DNA from: a virus
DNA length: 64,000 nt
IMG/VR virus record: IMGVR_UViG_3300045998_000148
Span: 1-64,000 of that record
Reading direction: 5' to 3' (one strand)
Shown: one piece after another, positions 6,034-59,055 of the stretch
How positions within the stretch are numbered: position 1 is the stretch's first letter
How the letters are laid out: each line of letters starts with the position of its first letter
The notes under the pieces: model-generated
Told to the model about the DNA's origin: nothing
The model's input: the letters and a program-made list of their open reading frames with translations, nothing else
Database searches by the model: none
Position numbers and translations under genes: made by a program

Positions 6034-6723
6034 TCAACCAAATTCGTAATAGCCGCCGTTGACCATGCCGCTAACCCGCACGAATTTTGCGGCATCAAGG
6101 GCATCCGTCCTTTTCTTTCTGGTCTTAGAAGGAGGCGTCTTAGGAGCCTCGCCAGAAGCCGTTTCCCGTATCACGTCCGATAGTTTTTTGCGGCCTTTCT
6201 TTTTAGATTTAGTTTCGCCCTTTTTCGCTTTAGACGATTCGGCGGCGGCGGTCAGCAGTTTTCTGTCTCCTGGGTTATTTGCGCTAACATCGCTCATCAA
6301 TTGCTTCCAATCTTCGTCAGATAAGTTTTCGCCAACAAGATCGCTCATTAATTGCGGCAAATCTTTGGCAGACAATGTGTAATATTCTTGCGCTCCCTTT
6401 CCTTTGGGTTCCAAAAGTTCTCCCTCGACGGCCTCTACTTGATTTTTCTTTTTCTTGCCGCCGCCGCCAGAAGTCAGGGCGCGTCCCGCCCCATAGCCCG
6501 CCGCCCCTACCGCACCGCCAACCAGCGTGGCAGCCAGCACCTTTTTAGCCAGTCCGCCCTTTTTGCCGCCGCCGCCTTCGCCGCTGCCGCCACCCCCGCC
6601 GCTGCCTTTGGGAAGAGATCGGTAATAGCCGCCGCCCTTCATTCCAGGTACTTTGACAAAAATCTTGTTGCCGATAATGGCGTCTTCTCGAAATTGTATT
6701 TTGGATAATATGCTGGTTGCCAC
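6034..6723 (-). CDS. Tagged phage protein with GGGYYR module and hydrophobic helix
   Basis: This 229-residue protein begins with GTG behind a strong ribosome-binding site (AGGAGGTATATC). Residues about 13-40 hold the tag shared with three other proteins here (DAIIGNKIFVKV, then GGGYYRSLPKG). A Gly/Ser linker follows, then a Gly/Ala hydrophobic segment (VLAATLVGGAVGAAGYGAG, about 61-79). The C-terminal half is Lys-rich and ends in a half-tag, FVRVSGMVNGGYYEFG. There is no enzyme domain. It may be the smallest member of a set of co-targeted proteins; function is unknown. Confidence 0.65.
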   Translation of the reverse strand: MATSILSKIQFREDAIIGNKIFVKVPGMKGGGYYRSLPKGSGGGGGSGEGGGGKKGGLAKKVLAATLVGGAVGAAGYGAGRALTSGGGGKKKKNQVEAVEGELLEPKGKGAQEYYTLSAKDLPQLMSDLVGENLSDEDWKQLMSDVSANNPGDRKLLTAAAESSKAKKGETKSKKKGRKKLSDVIRETASGEAPKTPPSKTRKKRTDALDAAKFVRVSGMVNGGYYEFG

Positions 6724-7169: not shown

Positions 7170-7487
7170 CTATTTTTGTTCTTGCTCTTGTACTTCTACC
7201 ACTCTCCGCAACGTGGCGATGCTATTTTCAATCGAAAAAAAATAACGGCACTGATTGGTACAGGCCAGCTCGCCGTACACGATGTTTTTTTCAGCTTCCG
7301 GCATCAAATAAAAAAAGCCCGCTACTTTCAAAGGAACGAAGTCTTCCTCGACGACGGTTTTCACATAGGCTTGCGCCCCTTTCATCGCTTTTTGAAAATC
7401 TTCGTCTTCCCGCAGCTTGTAAAGCTCCTCTTTGAACTTGTCAAACTTCGGCGTATCGCCCGACCGCGAATCTTTTGAAGGAGGCAT
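7170..7487 (-). CDS. Hypothetical protein, paralogue of 6745-7167
   Basis: This 105-residue protein starts with an ATG that overlaps the stop of the giant upstream gene by one base (TAATG), indicating translational coupling. The C-terminal two thirds match the neighbouring 140-residue protein, so the pair arose by duplication. The single CTNQC motif replaces the CSNC of the paralogue. No named domain is visible. Confidence 0.65.
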   Translation of the reverse strand: MPPSKDSRSGDTPKFDKFKEELYKLREDEDFQKAMKGAQAYVKTVVEEDFVPLKVAGFFYLMPEAEKNIVYGELACTNQCRYFFSIENSIATLRRVVEVQEQEQK

Positions 7488-10400
7488 TAGCTTGCTTGCT
7501 GTATTTTTCTGATTTTACCCGTATTTTGCGCGTTCAGTACGTCGAGGGTGCGGCTGGCCTCTGCCGTTACCGTTTTTTGGATGCCAAGGGTAGTTTCCAG
7601 CCCCGCCTTTACCTGTCGCGCCGTCCGAACCGCCTTCTTCGGCAATTCGGCATAGATTTTGCCGACTTCTTTAGCGGCGGCAGTAGCGTCGATTTCGCCC
7701 GACTTGTAGCGGTCGTAGACGCTGACGACATCGTTAGTCGTCGCCATTGCAACTACGGCTCCAATTCCCGGCGTGGGCAGGGGTATCGTGTGTTCAGCGA
7801 GCTGAGCCGACGCATTTCCGACGACCCAACCGCCGATATCTTGTTTTTTGACCTGCTCGGCAGCCGCAACGTCGCGGCGTTCGAGTTCGGCGATCGCCTC
7901 TTGGCGAAGCAGCTCTAATTTTTCAAGGCGTCCGGCCTGCTGGAACACGGGTTCGAGCTTGAGTTTGTCGTAAGCCGCCTTTGTCGCCTTAGCATCGGCA
8001 AACCCCCTGCGAATCGTGCGCGTGCCCATAATATCGCCAGCCAATGCCCCCGGCAAGCCGCCGATCGCGCCCCATTTGGCTCCATAAATGCCGCCCAGTG
8101 CCGCCGCCCCTTCTTCAACCAATTCGAGGCGACTCGGAACTTGCGTGCCGACCTGACTTGCCGCTTTGCGGGCGAGTTCCTCCCTCGCATTGCCCTCGTC
8201 GATCAATTCCTTGGTCGTGTCGTAGACAGCTTTCATGCTCGTGAGGAGCTTATTACGGACGATCGCCTCGCGCTGCGCCCCTTCCTTTTTTTGCTCTATG
8301 ATAATTTCGTCCTGCTGCCGCAAACCTTCTCGATAGCGCTCGACCGTAGCGCCCAAGACATCGCGGAACACATCTCTCTTTCGTTTCACCCGCAGCGTGC
8401 CGTCAGGCATTTCGACGACAGGCGAAAGCGCCTGCGCCAATTGACGAGCCGCTTTTTCGGTGCGTTCGTCGCCGCCGCCGACGACCTTCGCCCCCCTCTC
8501 TATAGCAGATTGGCTCGTTTCCGACAGCGCTTCCCTCGCTTTTTTTCGCACCGCTTCCGTGCCGACCACTTCCACGTTGCCGACGGAGATCGGCCTATCG
8601 GCTTCGCGAACCGCTGCAACCGCCTCGTCTTTAACCTTTTTAAGGGCTTCTTCTCGAACCGTTTTAAGGACTTCTTCTTTGACGCGATCTTTAACGCGAT
8701 CGGCGACAAAATCGGCAACTTTCTCGGGCGTACCTCCATCCTCTTCTGGATTGGGGTTCACATAGCGGACGGAGCGATAGGTTTTGCCGTCCTTGCCCTT
8801 GACGACTACCTCTTTGGCTACGAGGTCGGGGTCGTCTTTAAGGGCAGTTGACTTGCCGCCCCCGCCTGGTGCGGACTGGCGGGAAGCGGGTGGCTTGCCC
8901 ATTCGGTCGGCTCGCACGTTAAAGCCCCGAGCGGACGTAATCTTCCTGGCGAGCGCCTTGTTTGCCATCGGCAGCAGGCGGTTGAACTGCCTGTCGTCGA
9001 GGACTTGGGCAAGGGAGCGGTCTAATTTCGCTTTTAATTTGGGCAAGACGTCAACTTTTGGATTGGCCGATCGCTCCAGTGCAACGTCCCGAATGGCCTT
9101 TGCCCACAGGCGGTAGTAGGTCGATTCCTTGCTCTGGTGATAGGCGATCGCGATCTTGACTTCGTTTAACAGAGGGGATTCGCCTCTCGCGATCTGGCGC
9201 AGCGCCTCGTTCATCTTCTTTCGGATTTCGCCGATCCCCAACAGGAAATGCCCGCTTGACACTCCCGCCAGCACCCGTTCGACTTCAGCCTGATTGGAGC
9301 GTTCGTGCAGGGGATAGGCAATTTCTCCTTTAGGCAGGACGGGATAGGTATTGTTAATCGAAACGATCCGATCTACCAGGCGGCGTACAATTTTCGCCCC
9401 TTCCTCTTTTAGCCACTCGCGATCGCCGCCCGTCGTGACGCCCAACACGGCATCGCTACGGCGCTGCTTGCGCTTTCCGCGCTTGCTGTCGCCTTTACTT
9501 CGCTCGTAGATATTGCCGTTAAGGTAGACGTACTTGCCCTCATCGATAGCCGCAAGTCGGCGCTCTATCTCGGCCTCGAAATCGGCGAGGTGCTGGCGAG
9601 TATCGGCAAAGATCGTCTCCATGACCGTTTTTGCCTTGGCATTGGCGACCTCAATGCGATCGCCCTGGCGGATATAGTGATTGGCGTAGTTTTTCCGCAT
9701 TCGATTGGCAAGGCGTACCACGGGCTGCTTGCTGGCCTTTTGAATGCGCTTGAGGTAGTCGCGGTACTCTTCGACGGAACTAATTTGATTTGGCTCGAAC
9801 TTGGAACCTAACGTCATGTAATTGACGTAATTGCCGAGAGAGTCGGGACTGTAGGTTTTTGTCGCGTTTAAATTGAGAAAATCGACGATGCCCGCATATT
9901 TTGTCAGGTCTGCACCTCTCGGGTTTTGTGTCGGGCTGACGGCGGCCTTCATCACTTCCAGCAATTTCAAGGATTGAGCTTCTTCGGGGAAGCGTTTTTC
10001 AAATACCTTGTAGGTCTGCATTTCCTTCTCAAAGGGAGACATGGAGTTTGAAGTCCTAATTTCCTCCACCTCTCGCCTGAATTCGCCAAACTGCTTTTCC
10101 ACCGCTTCATAAATCGACATATCCTCGGCAGTTTCCGACTGTCGAAGTTTCCTCGACCGCTCCTGCGGGACGCCTGCCGGAGAGTCCGAAGTCCCCGACT
10201 GTCGAGTGCGATCGGCTGCGACAGTACCCGCCTGTCTCGCCTGTTTCTTTTCCGTGCCGGAGAGCCGATCTCGACTGGCGATCGTTTTCTGTCTCACCCC
10301 TTCAATTGCGTCGAGCTGTCGTTCGAGCATGGCAGATTCGCGAGTCCACTGGTCGAGAGCCTTGACGCGCACCTGCTGTCGGCCTGCCTCGGCGCTCATT

Positions 10401-12505
10401 TCTTCTTGCGACTGCCAGAAATGTTGCACGCTGTTCTTGTTGACCAAATCGACGGCCTTCCGCGCTTCGGCAATTTTGGCCTGCAAGCCTGCATTGCGCT
10501 CGGACAGCACCCGACTTCGCTCGTCTAATTTCTGGATTCGGCGATCGAAGAAGGCAATTTTTTTATCGACCTGGCGCTCAGCACTTTTGCCAATGCGGGC
10601 GATCGCCCTCTCTTCTTGCTCGGTAGCGCGGGAAGCGGCAAGCAAGCGCTGGTTTTGATTGGTCGCAATGCCGCCCGTTATCATTCCCGCGACTCCAGTA
10701 CCCGACAGGGCGGGGATGGCGACAGGCAGTACACTATTGTCGAGAGCAGAACGGACGAACTCTTTTTCGCGGACGGAGGCGATCGCGCCTGGAGTAGACT
10801 GGACAATCGCGCCTGGAGCAGACTGGACAATCGCGCCTGGAGCAGACTGGACAATCGCGCCTGGAGTAGACTGGACAATCCCATTATTTCCCTCGGAACG
10901 CTTTCGAGTACGGGCAGCAGCAGCCAGCCCCGCGCCAGCAACTCCGGCAATGGCGGCGGCGGCAATTATTTTTGTTGCGGCAGAATTTCTCCTGCCCTGG
11001 TGCGCGTTCTCTGCGGACGTATCGAGCGACTTAGCCCCCTTCAGCCGCCTCGTCCTCGCGGAAGGCTTTTCGTCTTTTGCTTCTCCCGGCAGCGCTCGAT
11101 AGTAGTAGCCACCTCCCGCTTTCTTGACCTTCACTTTTCCGCCGATGACGGCATCGCGACGGTTGGCGATCGCGGAGGCGGAGGCACTTCTGTCTTGGCG
11201 CGCGTTCCCTTGGCGAGGAAGCCTCGCCGGGGTCGCACCGCTCTTGTCAGTACGACGGCTCAATTGCCGCGAACGAGACTGCGGAAATTTCCTCGACGAC
11301 TTATTCCGTCCGTTCGGCGAGGTAGGTTTTTCGGCGACGGGCACATTCATTTCGGGCAAGTTTTTTTCGAGGTGTTCGATTAACCTGCGGCTCGAACGGT
11401 AGTTGTCTTTAATGCTGGCTACCCCGACAGTGCGCCGCACGATATCGACTAAACCTCCCTTCTCCTGGCTGAGGTAATCGCCGTACAATCCGATTTGTTT
11501 GGGCGGAGGGTATTCGTCGGCAAGCTTCCGAAGCGTCCTGCCGTAGGTGACGAGCGCCTTCCTGCGATCGGCGGGCAACTGTTTGTAATCGATGCCTTTC
11601 CAGTTGCTTAAATTTTTATCGGCGAGGCTGGCGTTGGGAACGATCGACATCTTGTGATCGACGCCGACGCCCATATCGATCCCCCAAAAAGAATCGCTTT
11701 TTTCGTCGTAGAAAATATTTCCGCGTCCTCGATCCCAATTGCCCGTAAACGTATCGAGGGCAGCTATTTTAGGCAAGTCTTCGTGTTTTGCCAGTGTCTT
11801 TAAATGTCCCGGCGTCAGTCCCTTAAAGCGATGGGCGATGTCGAGATCTTTAAATCGATGGCCGCTTTCTAGAGAGTCTACGGGCTTGCCGGGAACTAAT
11901 TCGTGGAGGGTAGCGCCAAACGGCCCTTGTTTGAGGGGGTGCTTCAACGCTGCCGGAACCATCTGCGTCGAATTGACCTTGATGCCCAGCGATCGCCCCA
12001 TCTGCGCGGAGAGTGCATCTGCACTCGCTTGCATATAAGAAATCGGCAGCTTGACTTGCTTGAAAATGTAGGGACGATCCTCTTCGTCCTTTACAAAATA
12101 ACTGTTGCCCGTCACGCCCGCCGTTATCTTTGGCTTGCTCTTGTCTAGCGTTATCTTGTCTAACTTTTCCTGCGAGATGACGTTTAGTGGCGTCTTGCCG
12201 CTATTTCGGTACGTCTCCTGCACCTTGTCAAGGACACCATAAACAGCGGCGGCAGCGATCGCACCCCTTACCGCAGCAAGGGCGACGGCGGATTTTACGG
12301 GAAGGCGAGAATCCCCGCCCGTCGCGGATTTGACCGACTCTCCCGCAGGGCGTTTCTTGCGGCTAGATTCTCGCCTGCCCTTTCCCGGCAGCGCTCGGTA
12401 ATAGTAGCCGCCGCTCGGTTTCTTGACCCTGACCCTTCCGCCGACAATGGCATCGAGGCGTCTGCTCTCTTGGTGCGCTTTTAGACTAAGAAGGTTTGTC
12501 TGCAT
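7487..12505 (-). CDS. Giant tagged polyvalent protein with HipA/PI3K-like kinase domain
   Basis: This 1672-residue protein carries two copies of the tag (about 18-41 and 450-473; core GGGYYYRALPG). Each is followed by a basic linker and a hydrophobic Ala/Gly segment (about 71-91 and 509-531). Residues about 105-350 resemble the HipA/PI3K-like kinase fold: a lysine strand (PYIFKQVK), a catalytic-loop-like GNWDRGRGN (255-263) and a metal-binding-like GIDMG (275-279). Downstream are four 8-residue repeats (IVQSTPGA), long coiled coils, and Gly/Ala-rich hydrophobic stretches near the C-terminus. It is translationally coupled to its neighbours. Phage polyvalent proteins of this kind can be injected with DNA, which is a family-based inference. 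Kinase activity is unproven. Confidence 0.7.
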   Translation of the reverse strand: MQTNLLSLKAHQESRRLDAIVGGRVRVKKPSGGYYYRALPGKGRRESSRKKRPAGESVKSATGGDSRLPVKSAVALAAVRGAIAAAAVYGVLDKVQETYRNSGKTPLNVISQEKLDKITLDKSKPKITAGVTGNSYFVKDEEDRPYIFKQVKLPISYMQASADALSAQMGRSLGIKVNSTQMVPAALKHPLKQGPFGATLHELVPGKPVDSLESGHRFKDLDIAHRFKGLTPGHLKTLAKHEDLPKIAALDTFTGNWDRGRGNIFYDEKSDSFWGIDMGVGVDHKMSIVPNASLADKNLSNWKGIDYKQLPADRRKALVTYGRTLRKLADEYPPPKQIGLYGDYLSQEKGGLVDIVRRTVGVASIKDNYRSSRRLIEHLEKNLPEMNVPVAEKPTSPNGRNKSSRKFPQSRSRQLSRRTDKSGATPARLPRQGNARQDRSASASAIANRRDAVIGGKVKVKKAGGGYYYRALPGEAKDEKPSARTRRLKGAKSLDTSAENAHQGRRNSAATKIIAAAAIAGVAGAGLAAAARTRKRSEGNNGIVQSTPGAIVQSAPGAIVQSAPGAIVQSTPGAIASVREKEFVRSALDNSVLPVAIPALSGTGVAGMITGGIATNQNQRLLAASRATEQEERAIARIGKSAERQVDKKIAFFDRRIQKLDERSRVLSERNAGLQAKIAEARKAVDLVNKNSVQHFWQSQEEMSAEAGRQQVRVKALDQWTRESAMLERQLDAIEGVRQKTIASRDRLSGTEKKQARQAGTVAADRTRQSGTSDSPAGVPQERSRKLRQSETAEDMSIYEAVEKQFGEFRREVEEIRTSNSMSPFEKEMQTYKVFEKRFPEEAQSLKLLEVMKAAVSPTQNPRGADLTKYAGIVDFLNLNATKTYSPDSLGNYVNYMTLGSKFEPNQISSVEEYRDYLKRIQKASKQPVVRLANRMRKNYANHYIRQGDRIEVANAKAKTVMETIFADTRQHLADFEAEIERRLAAIDEGKYVYLNGNIYERSKGDSKRGKRKQRRSDAVLGVTTGGDREWLKEEGAKIVRRLVDRIVSINNTYPVLPKGEIAYPLHERSNQAEVERVLAGVSSGHFLLGIGEIRKKMNEALRQIARGESPLLNEVKIAIAYHQSKESTYYRLWAKAIRDVALERSANPKVDVLPKLKAKLDRSLAQVLDDRQFNRLLPMANKALARKITSARGFNVRADRMGKPPASRQSAPGGGGKSTALKDDPDLVAKEVVVKGKDGKTYRSVRYVNPNPEEDGGTPEKVADFVADRVKDRVKEEVLKTVREEALKKVKDEAVAAVREADRPISVGNVEVVGTEAVRKKAREALSETSQSAIERGAKVVGGGDERTEKAARQLAQALSPVVEMPDGTLRVKRKRDVFRDVLGATVERYREGLRQQDEIIIEQKKEGAQREAIVRNKLLTSMKAVYDTTKELIDEGNAREELARKAASQVGTQVPSRLELVEEGAAALGGIYGAKWGAIGGLPGALAGDIMGTRTIRRGFADAKATKAAYDKLKLEPVFQQAGRLEKLELLRQEAIAELERRDVAAAEQVKKQDIGGWVVGNASAQLAEHTIPLPTPGIGAVVAMATTNDVVSVYDRYKSGEIDATAAAKEVGKIYAELPKKAVRTARQVKAGLETTLGIQKTVTAEASRTLDVLNAQNTGKIRKIQQAS
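10792..10880 (+). repeat. 24-bp tandem repeat, four copies
   Basis: Four near-identical 24-bp units (GCGCCTGGAGTAGACTGGAC plus ATC and one base) encode IVQSTPGA/IVQSAPGA repeats in the giant protein, just after its second hydrophobic segment. Confidence 0.85.
11194..11246. repeat. Single 51-bp palindromic repeat copy
   Basis: One copy of the 51-bp family (GGCGAGGAAGCCTCGCC core, flanked by GCGCGTTCCC and GGGGTCGCACC) lies in frame in the giant gene and encodes ATPARLPRQGNAR, directly before the second tag copy. A half-copy (CTCTTGGTGCGCTTTT, about 12468-12483) lies in frame before the first tag. Confidence 0.75.
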
Positions 12506-14003
12506 ATTTTTTGATTTTTTTGGGATCTAGCGTCATAGCTGCGAAAAAGTGCATCAAATAATCTTTGATTAAAAAGATGCGGATTTCGTCTGACATCGTG
12601 CCGTCAAATTGTTTGGCAATCGCGATCGCCAGCGCGTCTGCTTCTTCGGGATGTTTTAATCCTAATTGAGAAAAGAGACTTGCAAATTCCTGGCTTTCAT
12701 AGAAGCGGCGGACGATCTCGCTCGGCATTTGCGCCATCCCTTTCCCTGCCAATGGGCTGCGAGGGGGATTGCGAGGGGAACCTCCGGCCAGGACATCGGC
12801 GGCATCTTTCCTGCCTATTTTTTCGCGACTCCTCCGTTTAAATGTCACGAACTCGTTTATTCTCTGTCGCTGCTGCGCCCGCTTGTTTTTTCTCTGCTGC
12901 TGCCGCTCTCGCTCCATCTGTTCGCGGCGTTTTACGAGATTGGTCACATATTGCTTCTCGCCCGTATAGGGATTGGGAATTTCTTCCCACAAATCGCGCT
13001 TGCGGTTAATAGAGTCTTGCTTGTTCAGGAAGTCGGTAATTTGTGAGGCTGTCAGTTTCTCTTTATTGCGGGCGTAGTCGGAAAAGCCGTAAAAGCCAAA
13101 GTTGAGCTTTTCGCCCGACTTTGCCTTTTCTATTTGCTTCTCCCACTCCGGGCGCGTCCTTATTTTGAGGATGTTGTGGGTGACGGTATCGCCGACAAAG
13201 CGAGTTAGAGGCGAAACTTTAAATGCCTGAGAGGAGTAAGCGTCTCCTTCGACGATCGCTCGGGCAAAAGATTCGCAGTTGGAGCTGAAGCCCTTGTAGG
13301 TGAAGTCGCTGTAGAGCATTTGATGGGCGCGTTTTACTCGTTCTTCGCGGGGGATGTAGCGACTTTTTTGGGTCTGGTACATCTCCTCTTCTGGCACTTT
13401 TTCGTATTCGCTATCGTTCATGCGGGCGTCGGGCAGTATCCAAGTCAGCCCTCGAATGTTGATAAACGGGGTGTGGTCGCGAGTTTTCCAGTTTTCGCCG
13501 GAATCGATCATCATGTGTTCTTTGGTTATCGGATCTTTGCCGACATAAACCGCATAGTGTTGGGCATCGCCCAGCGTCGGCGACTTGATATTTTTGCGGA
13601 TCAAGTCTCCCGGCTCGAAGGTATCGTACTTGGCGAGAGTAAGCGCGTCGGGAATGCCGTCAGGCGGCTGGCGGATAGAAGCAAAGTCCGTGGGCAACTT
13701 TTCTTTGATGTCTTTGTAGACGCCGTGGGCAGCTCCCAATACCGCAAAGCCGATTACTGCCTTCAGCGGGGTTTTGAGGCCGATCGCCTTCATCTCCCTT
13801 ATTACTTCGCCGGAGCCGTCGATCAGCGCGGCCTGCGATCGGCTCAGCCCTTGGTATAAATTAGCCTTCGCCTGCACAGGTCTTCGGCCAACTCCCTTCT
13901 CCTTCTCGCGCCCCTCCCCCGGCAGCGCCCGATAGTAATAGCCGCCTCCGGCCTTTTTTACCCTGACCTTGTTGCCGACAACAGCATCTATCCTGAATGC
14001 CAT
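12486..14003 (-). CDS. Tagged protein with LRAT/NlpC-P60-like domain
   Basis: This 505-residue protein is the first gene of the minus operon; its ATG is preceded by AAGGAAT. Residues 5-29 are the tag (DAVVGNKVRVKKAGGG then YYYRALPGE), and residues about 80-96 form a hydrophobic helix. Residues about 128-265 match the lecithin-retinol-acyltransferase branch of the NlpC/P60 papain-like fold: PGDLIR, HYAVYVG with His149, and SNCESFA with Cys243, the expected catalytic pair. Relatives act as acyltransferases, thiol hydrolases or phospholipases. The C-terminal half is charged helix. The stop overlaps the next gene by 20 bp. The domain call is fairly firm; the substrate is unknown. Confidence 0.75.
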   Translation of the reverse strand: MAFRIDAVVGNKVRVKKAGGGYYYRALPGEGREKEKGVGRRPVQAKANLYQGLSRSQAALIDGSGEVIREMKAIGLKTPLKAVIGFAVLGAAHGVYKDIKEKLPTDFASIRQPPDGIPDALTLAKYDTFEPGDLIRKNIKSPTLGDAQHYAVYVGKDPITKEHMMIDSGENWKTRDHTPFINIRGLTWILPDARMNDSEYEKVPEEEMYQTQKSRYIPREERVKRAHQMLYSDFTYKGFSSNCESFARAIVEGDAYSSQAFKVSPLTRFVGDTVTHNILKIRTRPEWEKQIEKAKSGEKLNFGFYGFSDYARNKEKLTASQITDFLNKQDSINRKRDLWEEIPNPYTGEKQYVTNLVKRREQMERERQQQRKNKRAQQRQRINEFVTFKRRSREKIGRKDAADVLAGGSPRNPPRSPLAGKGMAQMPSEIVRRFYESQEFASLFSQLGLKHPEEADALAIAIAKQFDGTMSDEIRIFLIKDYLMHFFAAMTLDPKKIKKYADKPS

Positions 14004-21117: not shown

Positions 21118-21834
21118 TCAATCGTTCAAAATGCGCCGCATTTCGCGCTGTAGTTCGGGCGGCTGTCGCTCGATACCCTGTTCGACAAATTCGCCGCGCT
21201 GCCTCGCGTTAGAGATTCCGGCAGCGCGAGTGAAGGGCGGCTCTGCGATGGTGCGCCAGTCGGGGGGATCTTCCAATCGCAAGCCCATCCGTTCGATTTG
21301 ATTGCGGGTTAGCAATCGGGTAGCACAGCGGCAGAAATAGCCGCAGGGAGGCGCTGCCCGACGCCAGAATTCGGCATCGACTGGAAATACCTTGAGGTCG
21401 ATTGCCTTGTGATGGGGGCGAAAATCGGGCGAATCGCGATGGAGCCACTGCCTGCCGACAAACAATCGGCGGATATGGGGCTTATCCATCTGCGCGTACC
21501 TTCCCGCCGAATGCGACCGCCGCAGGTTGGTATCGAAAACCACGCGGAGGTGTCGATCGCGGAAGCGGTCGAGTACCTGTTGGCCGCCTTCGTCGGATTC
21601 GAGCAGGGTGACGAAGCTATCGTAGTCCGCACCGCCTTCGATGGCCGCATTGAGTACGCCGAACAGGTAATTAATAAAATCGGCGGAGGTCACGCCCGAT
21701 ACCGAGAACGCCCAGTCGTGGTATTCGCTGCCGACATTGCGGAGCGATTGGGCGGGCAGGGGAACGCGACGGCGCAAGAAATCGAGCTGTTCGGCAAAGG
21801 GTTGGCGGTAAAACTCTTCGGGATAGATCGGCAT
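21118..21834 (-). CDS. MuF-like phage minor head protein
   Basis: This 238-residue protein matches the phage Mu F / SPP1 gp7 minor-head family. It has the typical RDRHLRVVFDTNLRRSHSAG, RHSPDFRPHH-like stretch (RDSPDFRPHHKAIDLKVFPV) and C-terminal cysteine motif (PPCGYFCRCATRLLT). These proteins sit with the portal inside the capsid. It follows the small membrane protein by 12 bases in the tape-measure transcript. Its place downstream of the tape measure, rather than beside portal and terminase, is unusual. The family call is firm. Confidence 0.85.
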   Translation of the reverse strand: MPIYPEEFYRQPFAEQLDFLRRRVPLPAQSLRNVGSEYHDWAFSVSGVTSADFINYLFGVLNAAIEGGADYDSFVTLLESDEGGQQVLDRFRDRHLRVVFDTNLRRSHSAGRYAQMDKPHIRRLFVGRQWLHRDSPDFRPHHKAIDLKVFPVDAEFWRRAAPPCGYFCRCATRLLTRNQIERMGLRLEDPPDWRTIAEPPFTRAAGISNARQRGEFVEQGIERQPPELQREMRRILND

Positions 21835-22056: not shown

Positions 22057-25000
22057 TTAAAGTATCGCCGTCTTGGACAAATTGAGGGCCGTGTCTAATA
22101 TTTGAGAGAGGTTATCGGTAGGTCTGGCCGCTACGGAGCCGCGATCGCCTCGAATTGTCACCTTTGTATCTTTTTTTGCTACGGTCGCCTGTTTTAGGGC
22201 GTCCGTGAGGGCTTTCATGCTGGTATTGAGAGTATTGATATTGCGGTTGAGAGTTTCCTGTGGGCTGACCGTGGGGACGGTCGAGGGCACGCCAGCTCCG
22301 AATTGAGGCAATCCCGCAGGCCGCTTGACCTTTAATAAGTTTACCCCTTCTTGGATCGGGACGGGAGCGGTCGCTTCTGCCTGTAGTCGGGAACCAATGC
22401 CCGAGTAAAGAGGCCCATAGAGATTCCTGGCCTCGCGTTCTTTCTTGCGGACAACTCCTTCAAAGAGGCGCGGATTGTAGATGCGGCTCAAGTCCTCCAG
22501 CTCGGGTGCAATTTCGAGCAGGCCGCGATCGATGCGGCGAGGGGCGGCAGGACTTGGAGCTGGAGCGGGCGGAGCGGAAGGCGGCGGCTGTCCGGGTCGG
22601 AAAGAGACGATATCGTTAGCGCCCGTCCTGCCCGACAGGATATTAGCCTGGGTCTGGGCGACGAGCTGACGCCCTGCCGAGCGCAAGCCTCCCGTTCCGG
22701 CAAAGCCCAATTGAGCGGCAGCCCGATCGCCGAGCTGTTGAAAGAACTTGCGCTGCTGGTACTTGCTGGGCAGCGCTTCGCCAAATTGCACTTGAGCGCC
22801 CAGCCGCCCTGCCTGCTGGTTGATTAGAGTCTGCTGTCGTTTCTGGCCGAGGATTTGTGCCTGGGCGTCAAAACTCTGCTCGTCGAGGACGGCTCGCTGC
22901 CGGACGAGATCGATCTTTTGCGTCTGAGCGTCCACCTTCTGAGTGAGCGCCCCGATCAGGGCGGCATTGGCCGCTTTCTGCGGGTCGGCAAGGGCGGTAG
23001 CGAGTTCCGATTGCGCGTCGATCAGCCCCGACCGAGCCTCTATTTCCGCTACCTGATTGGCGATTTTCTGTTTCTCGCGGGCGATCTCAAGGGATTTTTC
23101 CTCTAATTTCAAATTTTCAAGCTGAGCCGCGTATTCCGTCTCCAGGGCATCGAGCTTGATCGCAGCAATCGTGGCGGCCAATTCCTTGCGCTCTCGTTCG
23201 GTGCGAGCGCCCTTGTCGAGGACGCCAAACTGCGCTTCGAGGAGCGATACCTGAGCCTTAAACGTCTCCAGAATGGCATTGGCGACGTCTTGCGTATTTT
23301 TAACCTTGGCCGTCTGCACGTCGTAGAGCGCCAGAATTTTTTCGAGTTCCGCCCTCGTCGCCTCGATATTGGTCTGGGCGATTTGCCGATCGCGGGCGAT
23401 AACGGCTTGGGCGGCCTGTATTTTATGGGTCGTCTCCAATTCCGCTTTTTTCAGCTCGTTTACCTGGATCTGCCGTTCCAGGGCGCGAACTTCAGCATCG
23501 TTTTGGGGGGCGATCGCGTTAGCTTGCAGGTAGCGAATGCGCTCGGCGAGCAATGCCCGAGTCTTTTCGAGTTCGACGTCGATCTGCGCCGTCGCGACCT
23601 TCCCTTTCTCTTTGATGGCGGTAATTTCATCTACCTTGCCGCGCACTACCGCCAGACTGAGCGCCTGTTCCTGCAATTTAATGTCTTCTAACTGGTCGCC
23701 GTACTTCTTCGAGATCGCCTCGTTAATGGCCTCCAGCGCCTTCTGTCGCTGTTCGGGTTCGACGTTGAGGGCAACCGATACCTCGCGCATTTTCTCGATA
23801 AATTCATCGCCACTAGCGATGCCCACGGCAAAGGCTTTTTGATAGTCCTGAATCAGGCGGTCGATTGTCGCCTTAAAGCCGCCCGACTGGGACTCCTCTC
23901 CCTTGGCAAAAGTCTCGTCGATGCTTTTTAGCTGCGTGCGGAGCTTGTCGCCCGCCTTGCCAATTTCGGCGGCCAGTTGGTTGCGCTGGATCGTACCCGT
24001 CGCCTGTTCTTTTAACTTGTCGTTCTCTTCGGAGAGGGCGTTGTTTTCCTCTTGAAGGGCTTCTCTCTGGGTATCGGTCAGGCCGAACAGGGAAGAAAGC
24101 CCGCGCTTGCTGCCCGCTACCTTCTTCTGCGCCTCTACATACTTGGTAAACTCATCGGTTGCCGCAATCCGCAAATTTATTTCGCGGCGCAATTCGCTTA
24201 CCTTCTGCCCCTGTTCCCTCGATTCTACGAGCCGTCCGTCCCGGTAGAGAGTATTGTACTTTTCCTGTTCGGCGGAAAGCTGCACGAGCAGCCGCGCCGT
24301 CTTGTCGCCATAAGCCCCCGTTTTAGGCGCGGAGACGGCCAAGATCGATGCGTTGCGCGTTTTTTCAAGGGCTTCTATTTCGGCAGCGAGGCTGTCGTAT
24401 TCCTTGGAATTGGGGGCGGCATCCACCAATTTCTTTCGCAGTTCGCCGAGCTGGTCGGTAACGCCGATCGCCTGCTGCACCTTGGGCGTCAGGTCGGCGA
24501 TGTCGCCGCCGCTTTTTTCAAAAGCCTGCCGTTCCTTCCGCAGTGCGTTAGCTGCGGCCAGGGTATCGATGGAGCTGGTAAATGCCTTTTCAGACTTATT
24601 GCCGCCGAGCAGTTCCTTGTTCTGAGCGATCAGGATTTCGTTAAATTCGATCTGTGCCTGTGCCTGGGATAGTTTCTGGCGGTTGCGCTTTAGCTCCTCC
24701 TCGGAAAGGGCAATCCCACTTTCGAGTTGTTTGGACTGCGCCTCATTTAACTTCTCGACCTCCTCGCGCAATTTTTGAGTCCGTATTTGCTGGATGTCGA
24801 GCTGGTAGCTGATATCCTCGAAGACCTGAGTATTGACCGATTCGCGTACTCGGCTGTAGATTGCCGCCGCCGCCGCGATCGCCCCCATTATCAGCAGGAG
24901 CGGGCCGAATGCCGCCCATAGTTGGGAGACGGCCAATTTCAAGCTGCCCAGGACGGGGAGCAAGCCGGAGAATGCCCCGGCGAGCTGGGTCTGCTTGAGG

Positions 25001-28000
25001 GCGGCAAAGCGGAGTTGCAGTGCGCCCGACTGGATGCCCAATGCCTTAAAGCTGTTGTCCAACAGCAGGGTACTGACAGCGGCTACCTTCTGCGTCAATC
25101 CGAGGCTGGCAATGCCGATGCTCAATCGATTAAAGGCAAGTGCCGTCTGACCGCAAATAATACCGACGAGCTTCACCGCTTCGCCGTAGAAAGCGGCGAT
25201 CGCCCCAGATATTGACATCTTCTGCGCCGAGGCCGCCGTCGCATCGCCGAGAGCTGCCGAACTCGCCACCGCCGCCGCCTGTTTCTGACGGAACAGGTTG
25301 AGCGTACCGATGTATTTCTGCATATCTTCGGCCAAGAGGCTGAACGCCGCCCGCACGTTTGCGAGACTCGCGCCACTCAAGCCGAAGATACCGATCAGCA
25401 AGCGAAGCGCCGCTGCTACCCGACTCGTCACGCCCGTCAGCCCCGTCAGTATGGCCGTGCTGACAAAAGCGCTGCGGTTAAAGGCGATGAGGCCGACCGA
25501 CAGTATGGCGAGTGCGCTATTGACCGCGCCAAAACTCTTCAGCGCGTCGATAAGGACGTCCACTGCCGACTTGACGATAGAGAGGAGGTTGCCCAACACC
25601 GCGCCAATCGAGTTAAATGTCTCGACAAGGGACTCGTTGCCCAGGATGACCTCGTTAATGATGCGGGCGGCGAGGTAGAGAGCAGATCCCCAGAAGGCAA
25701 TGCTGATGGCCTGAGAAGCGAGTGTTTCCCCGACCTGGCGCAATATCTTGTTAAACGTCTCTGTCAGCAGCCCTACTGTCGTCATTTGCGCCTTGCTTGC
25801 CCCGAGCTGACTCGCCATATTGGAGGCAGAAGCAGCGATCGCGTTCATCCCCGCTCCCAGGATGGGGACTTGGGCGATAAACTTGTTGCTCGCAATCGCG
25901 TTAAAGGCAGCGCCAATCGCGCCTAAATTGCGGGCGGGACTGGCCTGCAAGATCGACTCGAAGCCCGCCCGCAGCGGCGGGAACAGGTTGATAAGAGCTA
26001 TCCCCTGCACGGAAAGGGAGGCGACGGTAGGAATCAGCCCAGTCAACATGGCGGAGAATGGGCCTGCTATGGGCAGGAGAGACTTCTGCACGGCGGCAGC
26101 CAGTCCGGGTATTGCCTGCAAGTTCTGACCGAGCGTGAGGAAGCCAGCGCCGCCTCGCTGGAGCTGGGGGAATAAGGTCGCAAACGTCGCGAACATCCGG
26201 TTTGCCCCCAATTCCGTAGCGAACAGCAGTTCGCCGACGATGGGCAGCGATATGGCAATGGATCTAAAGGAAGTGGCGAGCAATTGAATTCCCTTTTGCA
26301 AGACAATCGCCTTGACCGCCACCCCCAAAAAGCCGCCGCCGACAGCGCGAACGAAGCCGACGAGCCGACCCATGAAATCGACAAAGGGCTGCAAGATCTC
26401 GACGGTAGCGTTAATGCCATCGGCGATCGCGCTTAGGAAATTGCCGAAGCTCTTGGCGAGGTAAGCCGGGATGCTGCTCGAAACGGGCAGGAGAGAGGCA
26501 AACGCATTTTTGATGGCATCGAACAAGTCGAGGACGCCCGAAAAAATAGCCGTGGAAACCTCGGTGAGGCCGCCGACAATTTGTTTTTTGACGAGCCGAA
26601 CCAAATTGCCCGTCTTGCCGATCGAGAACTCGGTCAATCCGTCGAAGACCTCGCCCAACCGAGCGACAATCGGCTCGATCAGGCCGCGCCCAGCGGCGAG
26701 CGCTGCCGTCTCAATCGTCTCGACAATATTGCTGTACTGGCCGCCGATGCTCTGCGCTGCCAATTTGTTCGCCTCTTTAAATCCGGCGAGGCGCTTGGTC
26801 AGTTCGGCAACCCCCGTATTCTGCGCCTTCCACTTGGCGATCATTTCGTTGGAAATGTTAAGAGTTTTGGCGAGTACGCTATTCTGGTCGATCGTACCCG
26901 TCAAGATACTGCCTATTTCCTGCCGCGCTTGGAAAAGCGGCAACCCGATCGCGCCCAGCGCTGCCGTAAAATCAACGGTCAGTGCCGCCGACTCGCGCAA
27001 GCCGCCGCCAATCGAGGAAATGCTGTTGTTGACGACCTGGAAGACCTCGACCAATTGGGAGGAGGTGACGCCGACTAACTCCAGCGACTCTTCCCGGATC
27101 TGTTGCAGCGCACTTCGCACGGGGCTAGCCAGAGCGGAGACGGCATTAATGCTTGTCAGGGCAATAGCATCGCCCTGACTGTTGGCACTGGTAACGAGCG
27201 AATTAAAAGTGCGCGTCGTCGAGGCGATCGCCGACTGGGTGGCGAGGAGCTGTTGGTTGAGTTCTTCGTTTTGACCGATCAGCAATCGAATCGGCCCTGT
27301 ACTGACAATCTGCTGGATGGTGGCAAATCCGCTGCTGATAAAGAAGATCTGCTGTCCCACGTTAGCCAGCACGTTAGAAGCCGCGCCGAGGCCGCCCATG
27401 ATGCCTTGAAATACGTCGAGCGGTTCGGACAGCCCCGCCATATATCCGGCTGTTTGGGAAATAAAGCTCAAGGGGGCAATAAACTTGCCTGGTAAACTCT
27501 CGATCGTGCCGAGGGTGTCGATGATTGCCGACTCAATGCGATCTAAAAGGGGCGTCATCTGTTGGAACAGCCGATCGCCAAAACCCTGCACGAATGAATC
27601 CCGCGCCCTCTCGCCCAACTCGTTCATCGACGAACTGAGCAATCCGCCGAGCCGATCGTCGATTGCCGTAAACTGTCCTTCCAGAAGGGTACTCGCCCGT
27701 CCCATCGCCTGAATTATTCGATCGCCGATATCGTCTGGGATCAAATCCTTTATTCTCTGCAAGAAGGCATTGTTCGCCCCAAACTTCTCTACCACTTGAC
27801 GGACGGCATTGCCGACCTGATTGAAAGCACTTGCGAACTTCTGCGAAAACCCCCTGACGTCGAGGCCAAAAATGCCTTCAAACGTCTTGGCTAACGCCTC
27901 CAGGGGTTGCGTGCCACTCAAAAACTCATCCCTTGCCGCCTGCAACTTCGCGATCTCGGCGCGAACCTGACCCAGCAAGGCAATGTCTTCATCCACCACG

Positions 28001-29964
28001 CCCGTCGCGCCGCCTCGAACGACCGGAACCGTATTAATATTGCGGGCAATATCTTGTTGTAATTGCCGCTCCCTTTTTTTTAAAAAGTCGATGGCCTCTA
28101 CATTGATGTTTAGCCGCTCTTGCAGCCTTTCCTTTTCGGCTCTGATGCTTTCGCCGTCACCCTTGCCGCCCTCGGGCAACTTTTCAAGTTGGGCGAGCCG
28201 ATCCTTTATCCGCCCTTCATTGGTCAGAAAAGCCTCGGGAATTAAAATATCGTTGACGCCCGCGACGACTTTCTTAAACCCCCCAGTCCAAGACTCTTTC
28301 AGTTGGTCGAAGGGGAGGAACTGCCTGAAGTTGTTATAAATCAACTGTCCGACAGCAGGCAGTCGAGAAACAAACTGCCCCTCTAATGCGTCAATAGCGC
28401 GAGAGGGCACGCTCTCAAACTGGGTTTCGAGGGATGCCGACAGGTCGATTAATTGATTGGCAATCTGGTTTTTTATGAAATTGACGGGAAGCAAGTCTGC
28501 ACTCGCGAACTGAGAGCGCAAGCCGGACTGCAATCCGGTTGCAATACTGCCTCCCACCTGTTCGCGCAACAATACATCTATGTTTTCCCGGCCTTCACGC
28601 GGCTTATAGCGTTCGATGCGCTGCAATGCCCTGCGCGGGTCGAGGACGGCGGCAAGGCGATCGCCCATCAGGTTGCGGGGAAGCAGGGCAATGGCAAGCT
28701 GATTGGCGAGGTCGGGCTGTCCGACAAAATTAATAAGCCCGCCCGCAAATAACTTCCCTGCCTGATAGCCTTTTTCCGTGACGGCAGCACTGGCTTTATT
28801 GAACAGGCTTTCATAACCTGCCTGCAAGAGGGAAATGCTCGCACTAGAGGCCAACTGCGATGCCGTTTTCGAGAGCGCAGCTCTAATGGGTTCATTGATA
28901 TTGGCGATCTGGCCGCCGAGTCCTTCCCCCTTTCGCGCTTCGGCAATTAAAGTTTTTAAAGCTCCCGATTCTACCAGTGCAATCCGACTGGCATCTGTCA
29001 GTTGACTGGCAATCACCTTTTCCAAGGCCGTTCCCGACAACTCGCGATCGAGGACGGAAAGCAATTCGCTCGATGTCTTTTTAGCAAAATTGGCCAACTT
29101 TTCCGATCCAAATGCCTTTGTCGCCGCAGAGACTAATTTTTCGCCTTGCCTGTCTATAAAAGCAGTGGGATCGGGAAAGATATTGGCGATAATCGCTTTT
29201 TGACGGGCTACAAAATTAGACGCCCCAGACACATCGAGCGCCTGCTGGTATTTCAGCCGCGCATCGGCGAGCAACTTCTGACGCTGTTCAATTTGGCCTT
29301 GAAGTCGTCGGTTTTCCTCTTCTAAAGGAGATTTGCCCTCCTGCGGGCGATCGCGATTGCGTTTCTGCGCGATTTCAAAATCAATTTGCGTCCTATTCCT
29401 GCTGCCTCCCCCTGCGATTAAATCGTCGAGAGTGCCGCGCCTTGCCACTTGCCGATTGAGGGCAATGCGAGCCTGCAAATTTGCGATAGAAGATTCAATT
29501 TTCTGTACCGCCCTCTGAGCCTTAAAAACTTCCGGCTCGACGGGAGCTAGATTGCGCTTTATCTCGCCACTAAAGCCCTTAAAAATTTCGCGGCTGATGC
29601 CAAACGTCTCGCGCAAGCCAGCACTCAGCTTGCCCGTATCGCGCAGGAATTTGGTTTGTGCCAACTCGTTGAGGGTGGCGAGGACGGTCGTTCCTCCTAC
29701 GTCTGTCTGCAAGACGGAAACCATTTCTCGGAGGGCGGAGGTGGTCGTCCTAACCCCGAGTAGCGTCGTACTCGCCCCAATCGACGTAATGTTGCGCGAC
29801 AGGGAGATCGCCTCGCTCGATACCGACGCAACCGCCTTCGTCAGGGCTTCAACACCCTTGGTAACGAGGCGAACGCCAGGAGTAGCGCCATCTTTTGTCT
29901 CCAGTCGAATCTCGATTGGATTGTTGCGAAAACTGCCTGCCCTTGCCCGCCCGCCCGTTGCCAT
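22057..29964 (-). CDS. Tail tape measure protein
   Basis: At 2635 residues this is the largest gene. It has the tape-measure pattern: an N-terminal assembly region, long coiled coils (for example AEIARLQAARDEF and much of 1650-2400), several hydrophobic Ala/Gly/Leu-rich segments in the middle (about 870-1700, such as GPLLLIMGAIAAAAAIYS) and a variable Pro-rich C-terminal region (PPPSAPPAPAPSPAAPRRID). It sets tail length and is ejected with DNA. From the usual rule of about 0.15 nm per residue, the tail should be near 400 nm. No lytic domain was recognised. It follows the tagged hydrolase-like gene by 12 bases. Confidence 0.9.
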   Translation of the reverse strand: MATGGRARAGSFRNNPIEIRLETKDGATPGVRLVTKGVEALTKAVASVSSEAISLSRNITSIGASTTLLGVRTTTSALREMVSVLQTDVGGTTVLATLNELAQTKFLRDTGKLSAGLRETFGISREIFKGFSGEIKRNLAPVEPEVFKAQRAVQKIESSIANLQARIALNRQVARRGTLDDLIAGGGSRNRTQIDFEIAQKRNRDRPQEGKSPLEEENRRLQGQIEQRQKLLADARLKYQQALDVSGASNFVARQKAIIANIFPDPTAFIDRQGEKLVSAATKAFGSEKLANFAKKTSSELLSVLDRELSGTALEKVIASQLTDASRIALVESGALKTLIAEARKGEGLGGQIANINEPIRAALSKTASQLASSASISLLQAGYESLFNKASAAVTEKGYQAGKLFAGGLINFVGQPDLANQLAIALLPRNLMGDRLAAVLDPRRALQRIERYKPREGRENIDVLLREQVGGSIATGLQSGLRSQFASADLLPVNFIKNQIANQLIDLSASLETQFESVPSRAIDALEGQFVSRLPAVGQLIYNNFRQFLPFDQLKESWTGGFKKVVAGVNDILIPEAFLTNEGRIKDRLAQLEKLPEGGKGDGESIRAEKERLQERLNINVEAIDFLKKRERQLQQDIARNINTVPVVRGGATGVVDEDIALLGQVRAEIAKLQAARDEFLSGTQPLEALAKTFEGIFGLDVRGFSQKFASAFNQVGNAVRQVVEKFGANNAFLQRIKDLIPDDIGDRIIQAMGRASTLLEGQFTAIDDRLGGLLSSSMNELGERARDSFVQGFGDRLFQQMTPLLDRIESAIIDTLGTIESLPGKFIAPLSFISQTAGYMAGLSEPLDVFQGIMGGLGAASNVLANVGQQIFFISSGFATIQQIVSTGPIRLLIGQNEELNQQLLATQSAIASTTRTFNSLVTSANSQGDAIALTSINAVSALASPVRSALQQIREESLELVGVTSSQLVEVFQVVNNSISSIGGGLRESAALTVDFTAALGAIGLPLFQARQEIGSILTGTIDQNSVLAKTLNISNEMIAKWKAQNTGVAELTKRLAGFKEANKLAAQSIGGQYSNIVETIETAALAAGRGLIEPIVARLGEVFDGLTEFSIGKTGNLVRLVKKQIVGGLTEVSTAIFSGVLDLFDAIKNAFASLLPVSSSIPAYLAKSFGNFLSAIADGINATVEILQPFVDFMGRLVGFVRAVGGGFLGVAVKAIVLQKGIQLLATSFRSIAISLPIVGELLFATELGANRMFATFATLFPQLQRGGAGFLTLGQNLQAIPGLAAAVQKSLLPIAGPFSAMLTGLIPTVASLSVQGIALINLFPPLRAGFESILQASPARNLGAIGAAFNAIASNKFIAQVPILGAGMNAIAASASNMASQLGASKAQMTTVGLLTETFNKILRQVGETLASQAISIAFWGSALYLAARIINEVILGNESLVETFNSIGAVLGNLLSIVKSAVDVLIDALKSFGAVNSALAILSVGLIAFNRSAFVSTAILTGLTGVTSRVAAALRLLIGIFGLSGASLANVRAAFSLLAEDMQKYIGTLNLFRQKQAAAVASSAALGDATAASAQKMSISGAIAAFYGEAVKLVGIICGQTALAFNRLSIGIASLGLTQKVAAVSTLLLDNSFKALGIQSGALQLRFAALKQTQLAGAFSGLLPVLGSLKLAVSQLWAAFGPLLLIMGAIAAAAAIYSRVRESVNTQVFEDISYQLDIQQIRTQKLREEVEKLNEAQSKQLESGIALSEEELKRNRQKLSQAQAQIEFNEILIAQNKELLGGNKSEKAFTSSIDTLAAANALRKERQAFEKSGGDIADLTPKVQQAIGVTDQLGELRKKLVDAAPNSKEYDSLAAEIEALEKTRNASILAVSAPKTGAYGDKTARLLVQLSAEQEKYNTLYRDGRLVESREQGQKVSELRREINLRIAATDEFTKYVEAQKKVAGSKRGLSSLFGLTDTQREALQEENNALSEENDKLKEQATGTIQRNQLAAEIGKAGDKLRTQLKSIDETFAKGEESQSGGFKATIDRLIQDYQKAFAVGIASGDEFIEKMREVSVALNVEPEQRQKALEAINEAISKKYGDQLEDIKLQEQALSLAVVRGKVDEITAIKEKGKVATAQIDVELEKTRALLAERIRYLQANAIAPQNDAEVRALERQIQVNELKKAELETTHKIQAAQAVIARDRQIAQTNIEATRAELEKILALYDVQTAKVKNTQDVANAILETFKAQVSLLEAQFGVLDKGARTERERKELAATIAAIKLDALETEYAAQLENLKLEEKSLEIAREKQKIANQVAEIEARSGLIDAQSELATALADPQKAANAALIGALTQKVDAQTQKIDLVRQRAVLDEQSFDAQAQILGQKRQQTLINQQAGRLGAQVQFGEALPSKYQQRKFFQQLGDRAAAQLGFAGTGGLRSAGRQLVAQTQANILSGRTGANDIVSFRPGQPPPSAPPAPAPSPAAPRRIDRGLLEIAPELEDLSRIYNPRLFEGVVRKKEREARNLYGPLYSGIGSRLQAEATAPVPIQEGVNLLKVKRPAGLPQFGAGVPSTVPTVSPQETLNRNINTLNTSMKALTDALKQATVAKKDTKVTIRGDRGSVAARPTDNLSQILDTALNLSKTAIL

Positions 29965-34669: not shown

Positions 34670-35866
34670 TTAAGGCAGCACGAGGATGACCATTGCCGCC
34701 TTGCGGTAGAGGAGGACGCCAGCCGTCGAAAAGCAGGAAGCCCTCACGATTGAATCCCAGCCGAACTCCTTGGGCGGCAAGTCCATGATGTCTGGCGTAG
34801 TCATCTGGAAGCGCAGGTTAGCCGGATTGCGCTTGTAGAATACGATCACGTTATTGGGGTTTAATCCCTTTTCGGCTAGCTGAGCGGCGTCTAATTCGGT
34901 CATTGCCTTAATATTGACCAGTCCGTTGCGCTCCATGCAGTATTGGAGGGTGGACTTGGAGACATTAGCGGTTACTGCCGCTACGCCAGTCGGCGTCGAG
35001 TAGAAGAGTTTATCGGCGAGGACATTGTAAATGCTATTAGACATCAACACCGTATCGGGCTTGTTAAGGGCAACGCGATAGGGTTCGATTATTTGATGGT
35101 AGCGAGCGCCGAGGTTGAACACGGCGAGGTCGGATTCCGGCGTCGTCGCCGTCGTAATCCCGATCGCGCTGTAAAAAGTAAGCCGTTCGGGGTGGTTGGC
35201 AAATCCGGGCAGGCCGACGCTCGGATCGCCGCGCAGCACCAGATCGGATTTCATCTGCTGCGCTCCGGCCAGCATCGCCAATCGCTTAATAGCGGGCAAG
35301 TCGATTGTCGTCGCGCCGTTCATCCCCGCCCTGGCGATAACCGCCAATTCCTTTGGCGAGAGGGTATAGCCGCCGTAATAGCTGTAGATCGGATCGATCC
35401 ATTCGGCAAACGCCGCTTCAGTCTGGGGGATGTCAGTGGTCTGCGGCGATCCCTGCTTCCACTGCCCGACCGCTTCTACGTTGTAGTGAACGTAGCTAGT
35501 CGCGAAAGGATCGTTAGCCGTCTGGATCGGGAAAATTTCGCCATCGCCAAAACTGCCGGGGGCGGGCATCTCCATCGAGACTTGCTTATCGACTAATTCC
35601 AACCCCCGCGCTACTGAGGTCACTAGCGGCTCCGAGTCCAGCCTGCCCACTCCCATAGAAGTAAGGCTAGCCTCGATCGCATCGCGGCGCTGTTGGTTGC
35701 CGACAGCCAAGTAAACGGCATCGTCTACCTTTACTTGCGTCGGATTTTTGTTTAGGGCGTCCATCCGAGCCTGCGCGGAGGCAGTAAGCCCAGACTCGTT
35801 TCCGTAGGCATTACTTAGGGCATTTAATCCCAATTCACTGCCTTGCATTACCAGGCTGTTAGACAT
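34670..35866 (-). CDS. Major capsid protein, DUF2184-like
   Basis: This 398-residue protein matches the DUF2184 major-capsid family (HK97-fold): an N-terminal arm, then SYYGGYTLSPKELAVIARAG, a helix MLAGAQQMKSDLVLRGD, GLPGFANHPER and a C-terminal TTPDIMDLPPKEFGWDS. It would form the icosahedral shell. A GGAG lies about 12 bases before ATG 35866. The cement protein and protease-scaffold genes lie immediately upstream on the same strand, the usual head-module order. Confidence 0.87.
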   Translation of the reverse strand: MSNSLVMQGSELGLNALSNAYGNESGLTASAQARMDALNKNPTQVKVDDAVYLAVGNQQRRDAIEASLTSMGVGRLDSEPLVTSVARGLELVDKQVSMEMPAPGSFGDGEIFPIQTANDPFATSYVHYNVEAVGQWKQGSPQTTDIPQTEAAFAEWIDPIYSYYGGYTLSPKELAVIARAGMNGATTIDLPAIKRLAMLAGAQQMKSDLVLRGDPSVGLPGFANHPERLTFYSAIGITTATTPESDLAVFNLGARYHQIIEPYRVALNKPDTVLMSNSIYNVLADKLFYSTPTGVAAVTANVSKSTLQYCMERNGLVNIKAMTELDAAQLAEKGLNPNNVIVFYKRNPANLRFQMTTPDIMDLPPKEFGWDSIVRASCFSTAGVLLYRKAAMVILVLP

Positions 35867-58730: not shown

Positions 58731-58860
58731 TACGGACTCCTTTTCTTTTGCTCCACTGTATTCCAACTGCCCACAGTTGTCAACGCCTGCCTACAGCTAT
58801 CTTTGTCCTGCTGATTTTGCAGCGCGATCGCCCCCGCTTCCGCCAGGGATTTATTGTCTA

Positions 58861-59055
58861 CTTACCGACTTTATTATCTATTTACCGACTTTATTATCTA
58901 TTTACCGACTTTATTATCTATTATTTGCCGAATTACCTACTTACCGACTTTATTATCTATTTACCGACTTTATTATCTATTTGCCGAAGTATTTATTTAC
59001 TGACTTTATTACCTACTTGCCAACTTTATTATCTATTTACCGACTTTATTATCTT
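58861..59055. repeat. 20-bp iteron-like tandem repeats, about nine to ten copies
   Basis: Copies of TTTACCGACTTTATTATCTA lie head to tail at a 20-bp period from 58861 to 59055; units at 58881 and 58901 are identical, while those at 58921 and 58980 are diverged. The array is AT-rich and sits in the only non-coding gap of this region, between two minus-strand genes. A 20-bp period in a phage or plasmid intergenic region is typical of iterons or partition sites. No spacers are present, so it is not a CRISPR array. Confidence 0.88.

Follow-up and report, generated by a model that had tools for sequence, protein, structure and literature searches.

The window analysed here, 64,000 bases long, comprises bases 1-64000 of a 99,877-base IMG/VR virus record (IMGVR_UViG_3300045998_000148) and encodes P0001, a large polyprotein-like open reading frame (ORF) in which a kinase-like domain is combined with repeated short tags. 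The terminase of the phage is closest to that of Planktothrix phage PaV-LD (43.8%), followed by that of Aphanizomenon phage CL131 (39.9%), which makes a cyanobacterial host likely and relates the phage, as judged from sequence, to viruses of filamentous cyanobacteria. P0001 lies downstream of the structural genes, and a tagged ORF (12486-14003) directly precedes it with a 20-base overlap. A first-pass annotation, made from the letters alone, had described P0001 as a 1672-residue tagged ORF with hydrophobic segments; the single open frame on the minus strand, the tags and the hydrophobic segments are all present, and its residue numbers for GNWDRGRGN and GIDMG (D258, N263 and D277) were reproduced exactly, the Lys strand YIFK giving K149. 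The third RxDA site, the tag in other ORFs of the window and the RxD motif of the capsid and head protease, all described below, went unremarked there. The following features were assigned:

7487..12505, minus strand: P0001, polyprotein-like ORF of 1672 amino acids, a single open frame (ORF translation)
12383..12460, minus strand: tag 1, residues 16-41, RLDAIVGGRVRVKKPSGGYYYRALPG, starting with RLD↓A, a putative cleavage motif
12230..12292, minus strand: hydrophobic helix 1, residues 72-92, maximal mean hydropathy over 19 residues (KD19) 1.93
11351..12193, minus strand: predicted HipA/PI3K-like kinase domain, residues 105-385 (profiles, homologues, conserved residues)
12059..12061, minus strand: K149 in YIFK, putative ATP-binding lysine
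11717..11743, minus strand: catalytic loop GNWDRGRGN, residues 255-263 (N256, D258, N263)
11669..11683, minus strand: GIDMG, residues 275-279, with D277 DFG-like
11084..11161, minus strand: tag 2, residues 449-474, RRDAVIGGKVKVKKAGGGYYYRALPG
10913..10975, minus strand: hydrophobic helix 2, residues 511-531, maximal KD19 2.11
9449..9460, minus strand: third RxDA site, RSDA, residues 1016-1019, with no tag after it

The tag copies of P0001 read RLDAIVGG...GGYYYRALPG from residue 16 and RRDAVIGG...GGYYYRALPG from residue 449, and the protein has two cassette starts, each made up of an RxDA tag, a linker and a hydrophobic helix; the kinase-like domain stands after the first. Pfam detected no peptidase domain in P0001, in a search that included no MPTase model, and no relatives were found in viral_contigs (whole protein or domain), phages, plasmids or genome_contigs. 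A resemblance of residues 1466-1569 to the C-terminal end of the portal-MuF protein from CL131 (20 bits) was dropped as too weak and of biased composition. The tag, of about 25 residues, recurs in the window, for a total of four proteins; a pattern search found no GGYYYRALP tag in PaV-LD or CL131. The other tagged ORFs are:

12486..14003, minus strand: 505-residue ORF with the tag at residues 4-29, a hydrophobic segment and an LRAT-like domain (residues 130-254) with H149 and NCESF
6034..6723, minus strand: 229-residue ORF with an N-terminal tag (REDA), a Gly/Ala helix and another, C-terminal tag-like copy (RTDA)
29977..32352, minus strand: 791-residue ORF directly upstream of the tape measure gene, with a diverged tag (RGDK...GGGYWRKLPEG) and a lipase-like region

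The P0001 tag matches that of its 505-residue neighbour with domain E-values of about 1e-8 to 1e-10. The LRAT-like domain of this neighbour was detected with PF04970 (2.1e-7), and its H149 and NCESF are taken by us to be LRAT-type motifs. In most cases an Ala/Gly-rich hydrophobic helix comes after the tag, and an enzyme-like domain (kinase, LRAT-like or lipase-like) after the helix.

The proposal that P0001 carries a kinase-like domain of the HipA/PI3K type is borne out by homologues and by conserved catalytic residues. Two phage homologues (records G005 and G007) align to P0001 residues 72-384 with 38-39% identity (E-values of 7e-55 and 6e-53), and K149, N256, D258, N263 and D277 are unchanged in both. 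These relatives surfaced only through the records of terminase relatives, two of ten such records matching and eight not. In an alignment of five sequences (the window domain, one phage homologue and three stand-alone cyanobacterial HipA_2-type proteins), the Lys of YIFK, D251, N256, D258, R259, N263 and I-D-x-G are invariant; D258 and N263 lie within residues 251-263, DTFTGNWDRGRGN. P0001 therefore displays the sequence features of the HipA/PI3K-PI4K-like kinase superfamily: the ATP-binding Lys, the NxD...N catalytic loop and the metal-binding Asp of IDxG. The stand-alone cyanobacterial HipA_2/phrog_3162 kinases have K, NxDRxxxN and IDxG in common with P0001, but differ in that identity to a stand-alone cyanobacterial protein is 17-22%, and in that the P0001 domain scores under the Pfam cut-offs and is fused to a tag and a helix. 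Given the E-values of the tag and of the kinase homologues with their invariant motifs, the combination of tag and kinase-like domain is not due to chance.

Profile searches gave phrog_3162 matches of 2.3e-4 with the window protein, 1.4e-5 with its kinase domain and 3e-10 with the best of the homologues. The window domain matched TIGR03843 at 0.0017, below the NCBIfam cut-off, and PI3_PI4_kinase (PF00454) at 0.11, with 12.8 bits against a curated cut-off of 27.1; a Pfam search with it returned no HipA_2 (PF20613) match. The best values among the homologues were 7e-6 for HipA_2 and 2.4e-4 for PF00454, the G005 polyprotein reaching 20.7 bits against HipA_2, under the curated cut-off of 27. No significant match to the homologue kinase was found in phages and plasmids, no HipA_2-type protein was confirmed in the viral scan, and PDB searches by sequence gave no match. 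Profile A5 had no matches at 1e-5 in 386 cyanobacterial genomes, a search that included no positive control and is thus uninformative.

The comparison of predicted structures with HipA and PI3/PI4 kinases that the first-pass annotation had proposed yielded weak support. The AlphaFold2 (AF2) model of the window domain had a predicted local distance difference test score (pLDDT) of 44, too low to use, and that of the 39% identical G005 homologue was of low confidence (pLDDT 54.5, predicted template modelling score 0.57). Foldseek found nothing significant for either model in the PDB, nor for the homologue model in BFVD. Re-alignment of the homologue model with VIA placed Helicobacter CtkA at the top and CtkA, PI3K, PI4KIIIbeta and VPS34 entries at ranks 1-39 of the best 50 (Z 4.8-6.3), with four unrelated entries among ranks 40-50. 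Because the tool rates Z values of this size as common, many of the rows represent the same protein and the candidates had been preselected by Foldseek, this result is consistent with a kinase fold and not decisive. Taken together, motifs and weak model evidence make a kinase-type fold in residues 105-385 very probable; catalytic competence is predicted with somewhat lower confidence. A structural scaffold with a dead, binding-only kinase-like domain would accord with the long helical stretches of P0001, judged from its sequence, and with the absence of a nucleophile serine (AHGVGG) from the lipase-like region of the 791-residue ORF; we consider it very unlikely, as all kinase catalytic residues are retained across homologues that are just 38-39% identical.

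R-x-D-(A/S/K) usually precedes both this tag and the Cys-rich tag of related cyanophages described below, and R-x-D-(A/S) recurs in the head genes of the window. The pertinent head and tail genes are:

34670..35866, minus strand: major capsid protein, whose N-arm contains RMDA (34), RRDA (60) and RLDS (75)
36853..38610, minus strand: head maturation protease (phrog_530, DUF2213-like) with ten RxD(A/S)
22057..29964, minus strand: tape measure protein, with matches to the tape measure genes of PaV-LD and CL131
21118..21834, minus strand: MuF minor head protein, separate from P0001

The capsid protein and protease together contain 13 R.D[AS] motifs where 0.80 are expected, a count reached by none of 300 shuffles, and the four tagged ORFs contain 8 where 2.62 are expected (reached by 1 of 300 shuffles), five of these at tags. 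The other 37 genes of the window show no enrichment (9 observed, 9.90 expected). An N-arm RLDS, RMDA or RLDA is found in all seven distinct cyanophage-type capsid proteins (window, PaV-LD, CL131, G005, G007 and two from Nostoc) and in three of five Firmicutes prophage proteins, two of them alike; as background, among 1,510 ORFs with 100 residues or more, 4.8% have R.D[AS] within the first 50 residues. The protease is enriched in RxD in six of the seven full-length cyanophage-type sequences, the exception being G005 with one copy. Compared with those of PaV-LD and CL131, the window capsid protein is also longer at its N-terminus by about 70 residues, and this added part contains two further RxDA sites.

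In the related phages G005 and G007, the kinase and lipase modules reside in polyproteins of 1750-2220 residues just upstream of the tape measure gene, as does gp048 of CL131. Like the P0001 set, these polyproteins are built from a repeated tag, a hydrophobic helix and an enzyme-like module; gp048 is homologous to the 791-residue ORF, while G005 and G007 are homologous to both this ORF and the kinase. They differ in having most modules in one ORF and in carrying a Cys-rich tag (CKxGxxCGxxCIPxxxxC), unrelated to GGYYYRALP; in G005 and G007 such tags flank the kinase module. Alpha/beta-hydrolase modules (DUF676, Lipase_3 and others) stand behind the Cys-rich tag in gp048, G005, G007 and two Nostoc polyproteins (L053 and L054). 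Earlier hydrolase modules retain GHSxGG or GQSGGG, whereas in the last one the nucleophile serine is missing or changed (window 29977-32352, gp048 in L014, L063, L064 and L054); this module reads AHGYGG in gp048 and AHCNGG in G005, G007 and L054, and may be a repeatedly inactivated or repurposed copy. Cys-tagged proteins are also encoded by PaV-LD ORF061/062 (L013:38491-41488), ORF065/066 (L013:42710-45603) and ORF085 (L016:10324-11406), in which the tag follows RYDA or RIDA; ORF085 unites in one protein what ORF062 and ORF066 have separately. The domain of ORF062, ORF066 and ORF085 resembles an ADP-ribosyltransferase in its motifs; Pfam gave no match to ORF062 or ORF085. For CL131, virion proteomics identified 23 proteins (PMC6293099).

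A hydrophobic segment (KD19 of at least 1.4) lies within 110 residues after 21 of the 29 tags with enough sequence (5 from this phage and 24 of the Cys type), compared to 18% of random control windows from Cys-tagged proteins; the 791-residue ORF has none within this distance of its tag. R.D occurs within 15 residues upstream of 17 of 25 Cys tags (16 of 23 without two near-duplicates), versus 4.1% of random 15-mers. By a loose test, all 23 non-duplicate Cys tags have some x-x-D upstream, and RxDA precedes all four further Cys-type tags (PaV-LD and L031). The best evidence that the tags are exchangeable while the cassette stays constant is that the homology of the kinase module reaches through the hydrophobic helix, while P0001 and G005/G007 have unrelated tags in front of it.

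These arrangements bear on two further explanations. The tagged proteins might be carried in the lumen of the tail together with the tape measure protein, with the tags serving as tail-loading signals and RxD as a mere linker motif, as the position of the 791-residue ORF, the G005 and G007 polyproteins and gp048 directly upstream of the tape measure gene would suggest; this is unlikely, since P0001 and the LRAT-like ORF lie about 8 kb beyond that gene and the head protease and the N-arm of the capsid protein have the RxD code too. P0001 might otherwise be an unprocessed protein of the ordinary polyvalent or MuF type that works in one piece, its tags being protein-protein binding hairpins. Large multidomain late-gene proteins are described in the survey of polyvalent proteins (PMC5512222), and P0001 is itself a large multidomain protein among late virion genes; we nonetheless regard this as quite unlikely, since several phages keep the cassette order with swapped tags and RxD stands at the cassette borders. 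In MuF polymorphic toxins MuF is N-terminal to the effector in one protein, whereas the Phage_Mu_F domain is absent from P0001 and is found by Pfam in the window only in ORF 21118-21834.

On balance, we lean towards the view that P0001 is a virion-cargo polyprotein cut by the head protease at RxD, the pieces being packaged and ejected with the DNA. The phage encodes a head protease, and its likely motif is common to the capsid protein and the candidate cargo. The putative cut sites of P0001 and the other tagged proteins resemble the head protease's own, which suggests that the pieces travel in the virus particle into the host. In this model, the protease would cut after RxD (RxD↓A/S/K) during prohead maturation, so that each module then begins with a tag; the tag or RxD region would bring the module into the particle; and the cut pieces would be single-helix effectors, ejected along with the DNA. 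The hydrophobic helix may help the kinase to pass through the host membrane or to stay within it, and there the enzyme could phosphorylate a protein or lipid of the host at an early stage of infection. The earlier description of P0001 as a polyvalent protein that may enter the host is retained in part: its late-gene context and the common RxD code make entry plausible, and a polyprotein of separately tagged cassettes appears the better description than a single polyvalent protein.

Several observations weigh against this model. Three of the eight RxD(A/S) motifs of the tagged ORFs are away from tags, one tag copy is C-terminal, and 8 of the 25 Cys tags have no nearby R.D. The N-arm R is absent in all five proteobacterial relatives of the capsid protein (two have KTDA or KLDA) and in two of the five Firmicutes relatives, and the S-CBS4 capsid protein has RMDE. 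In G000, a very large protein at ~81419-86986 (L005:17419 to L006:4986) matches DarB-like antirestriction and DNA methyltransferase/helicase families (phrog_10089, 4.8e-213); it has two RxD(A/S) only, not clustered. The kinase profile scores lie under the Pfam and NCBIfam cut-offs, and the AF2 models are of low confidence.

Virion-packaged effectors processed by a head protease are already known, as are large multidomain injected proteins. In T4, Alt and the internal proteins are processed by the prohead protease at (L/I)xE sites. The head protease of SPN3US is reported to cleave after A-x-E with Ser preferred at P1' and to cut several ejected proteins (PMC10052503; see also PMC5694885 and PMC7411985); R-x-D↓A/S has the same shape, and we infer that RxD is the cleavage site of the present protease. 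No cleavage site for the DUF2213-like family was found in the literature searched, as partial texts or listings. The likeness to SPN3US E proteins and T4 Alt and internal proteins lies in a head protease for which the P1 residue is acidic; those proteins are packaged with DNA (PMC10052503), whereas the present ones are candidate cargo, have RxD in place of AxE or (L/I)xE, repeat the tags within a polyprotein and in most cassettes include a hydrophobic helix. The polyvalent proteins known from phages and conjugative elements likewise are large multidomain late-gene products with predicted host-directed enzymes; in the text of the survey (Iyer 2017, PMC5512222), their splitting is ascribed to an internal metallopeptidase-like MPTase domain, common though not universal among them, where P0001 has putative head-protease sites, and their kinase is of the Ser/Thr/Tyr type and not HipA/PI3K-like, with no mention of 'HipA'. 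In the papers compared, we found no match for polyproteins made of tag-helix-enzyme cassettes, for a pair of exchangeable tags or for an RxD code shared with the capsid.

Other features of the window include a dense A+T-rich tandem array at 58850-59054 (a 20-base unit in 10.5 copies) in a genome otherwise of 55% G+C, and an ORF with a PterinBD-DUF4346 domain (3.1e-14) at 17945-19405 on the minus strand, amid tail and head completion genes. A 51-base G+C-rich repeat at 32173-32289, 32888-33041, 43472-43644 and 50387-50512, inside several coding regions, translates as GATPARLPRQGNAHQD or similar, is also part of P0001 residues 421-446, and looks like a dispersed short repeat entering genes in frame.

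The predicted LRAT-like, lipase-like and PI3K-like kinase activities, mostly with one hydrophobic helix each, could all act at membranes, and this has led us to a broader, tentative proposal, possible at best: a head-loaded effector kit in which a single protease would both mature the capsid and split polyproteins at RxD↓ into tag-headed, single-helix, membrane-directed enzymes (kinase, LRAT-like acyltransferase or phospholipase, lipases) acting on host membranes or membrane proteins at entry, the two unrelated tags (GGYYYRALP and Cys-rich) being an exchangeable loading code with the same job. The loss of the nucleophile serine from the lipase-like region in the window and from the last gp048 module argues against it. 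Few of the phage proteins that enter the host with the DNA are known, and predicting them is difficult. If cargo is marked by RxD together with a tag, virion effectors could be recognised by sequence within this protease family, giving a list of candidate injected effectors for this phage group. With the present prediction, a HipA/PI3K-like kinase joins the Ser/Thr/Tyr-type kinases of polyvalent proteins as a candidate for early takeover of the host.

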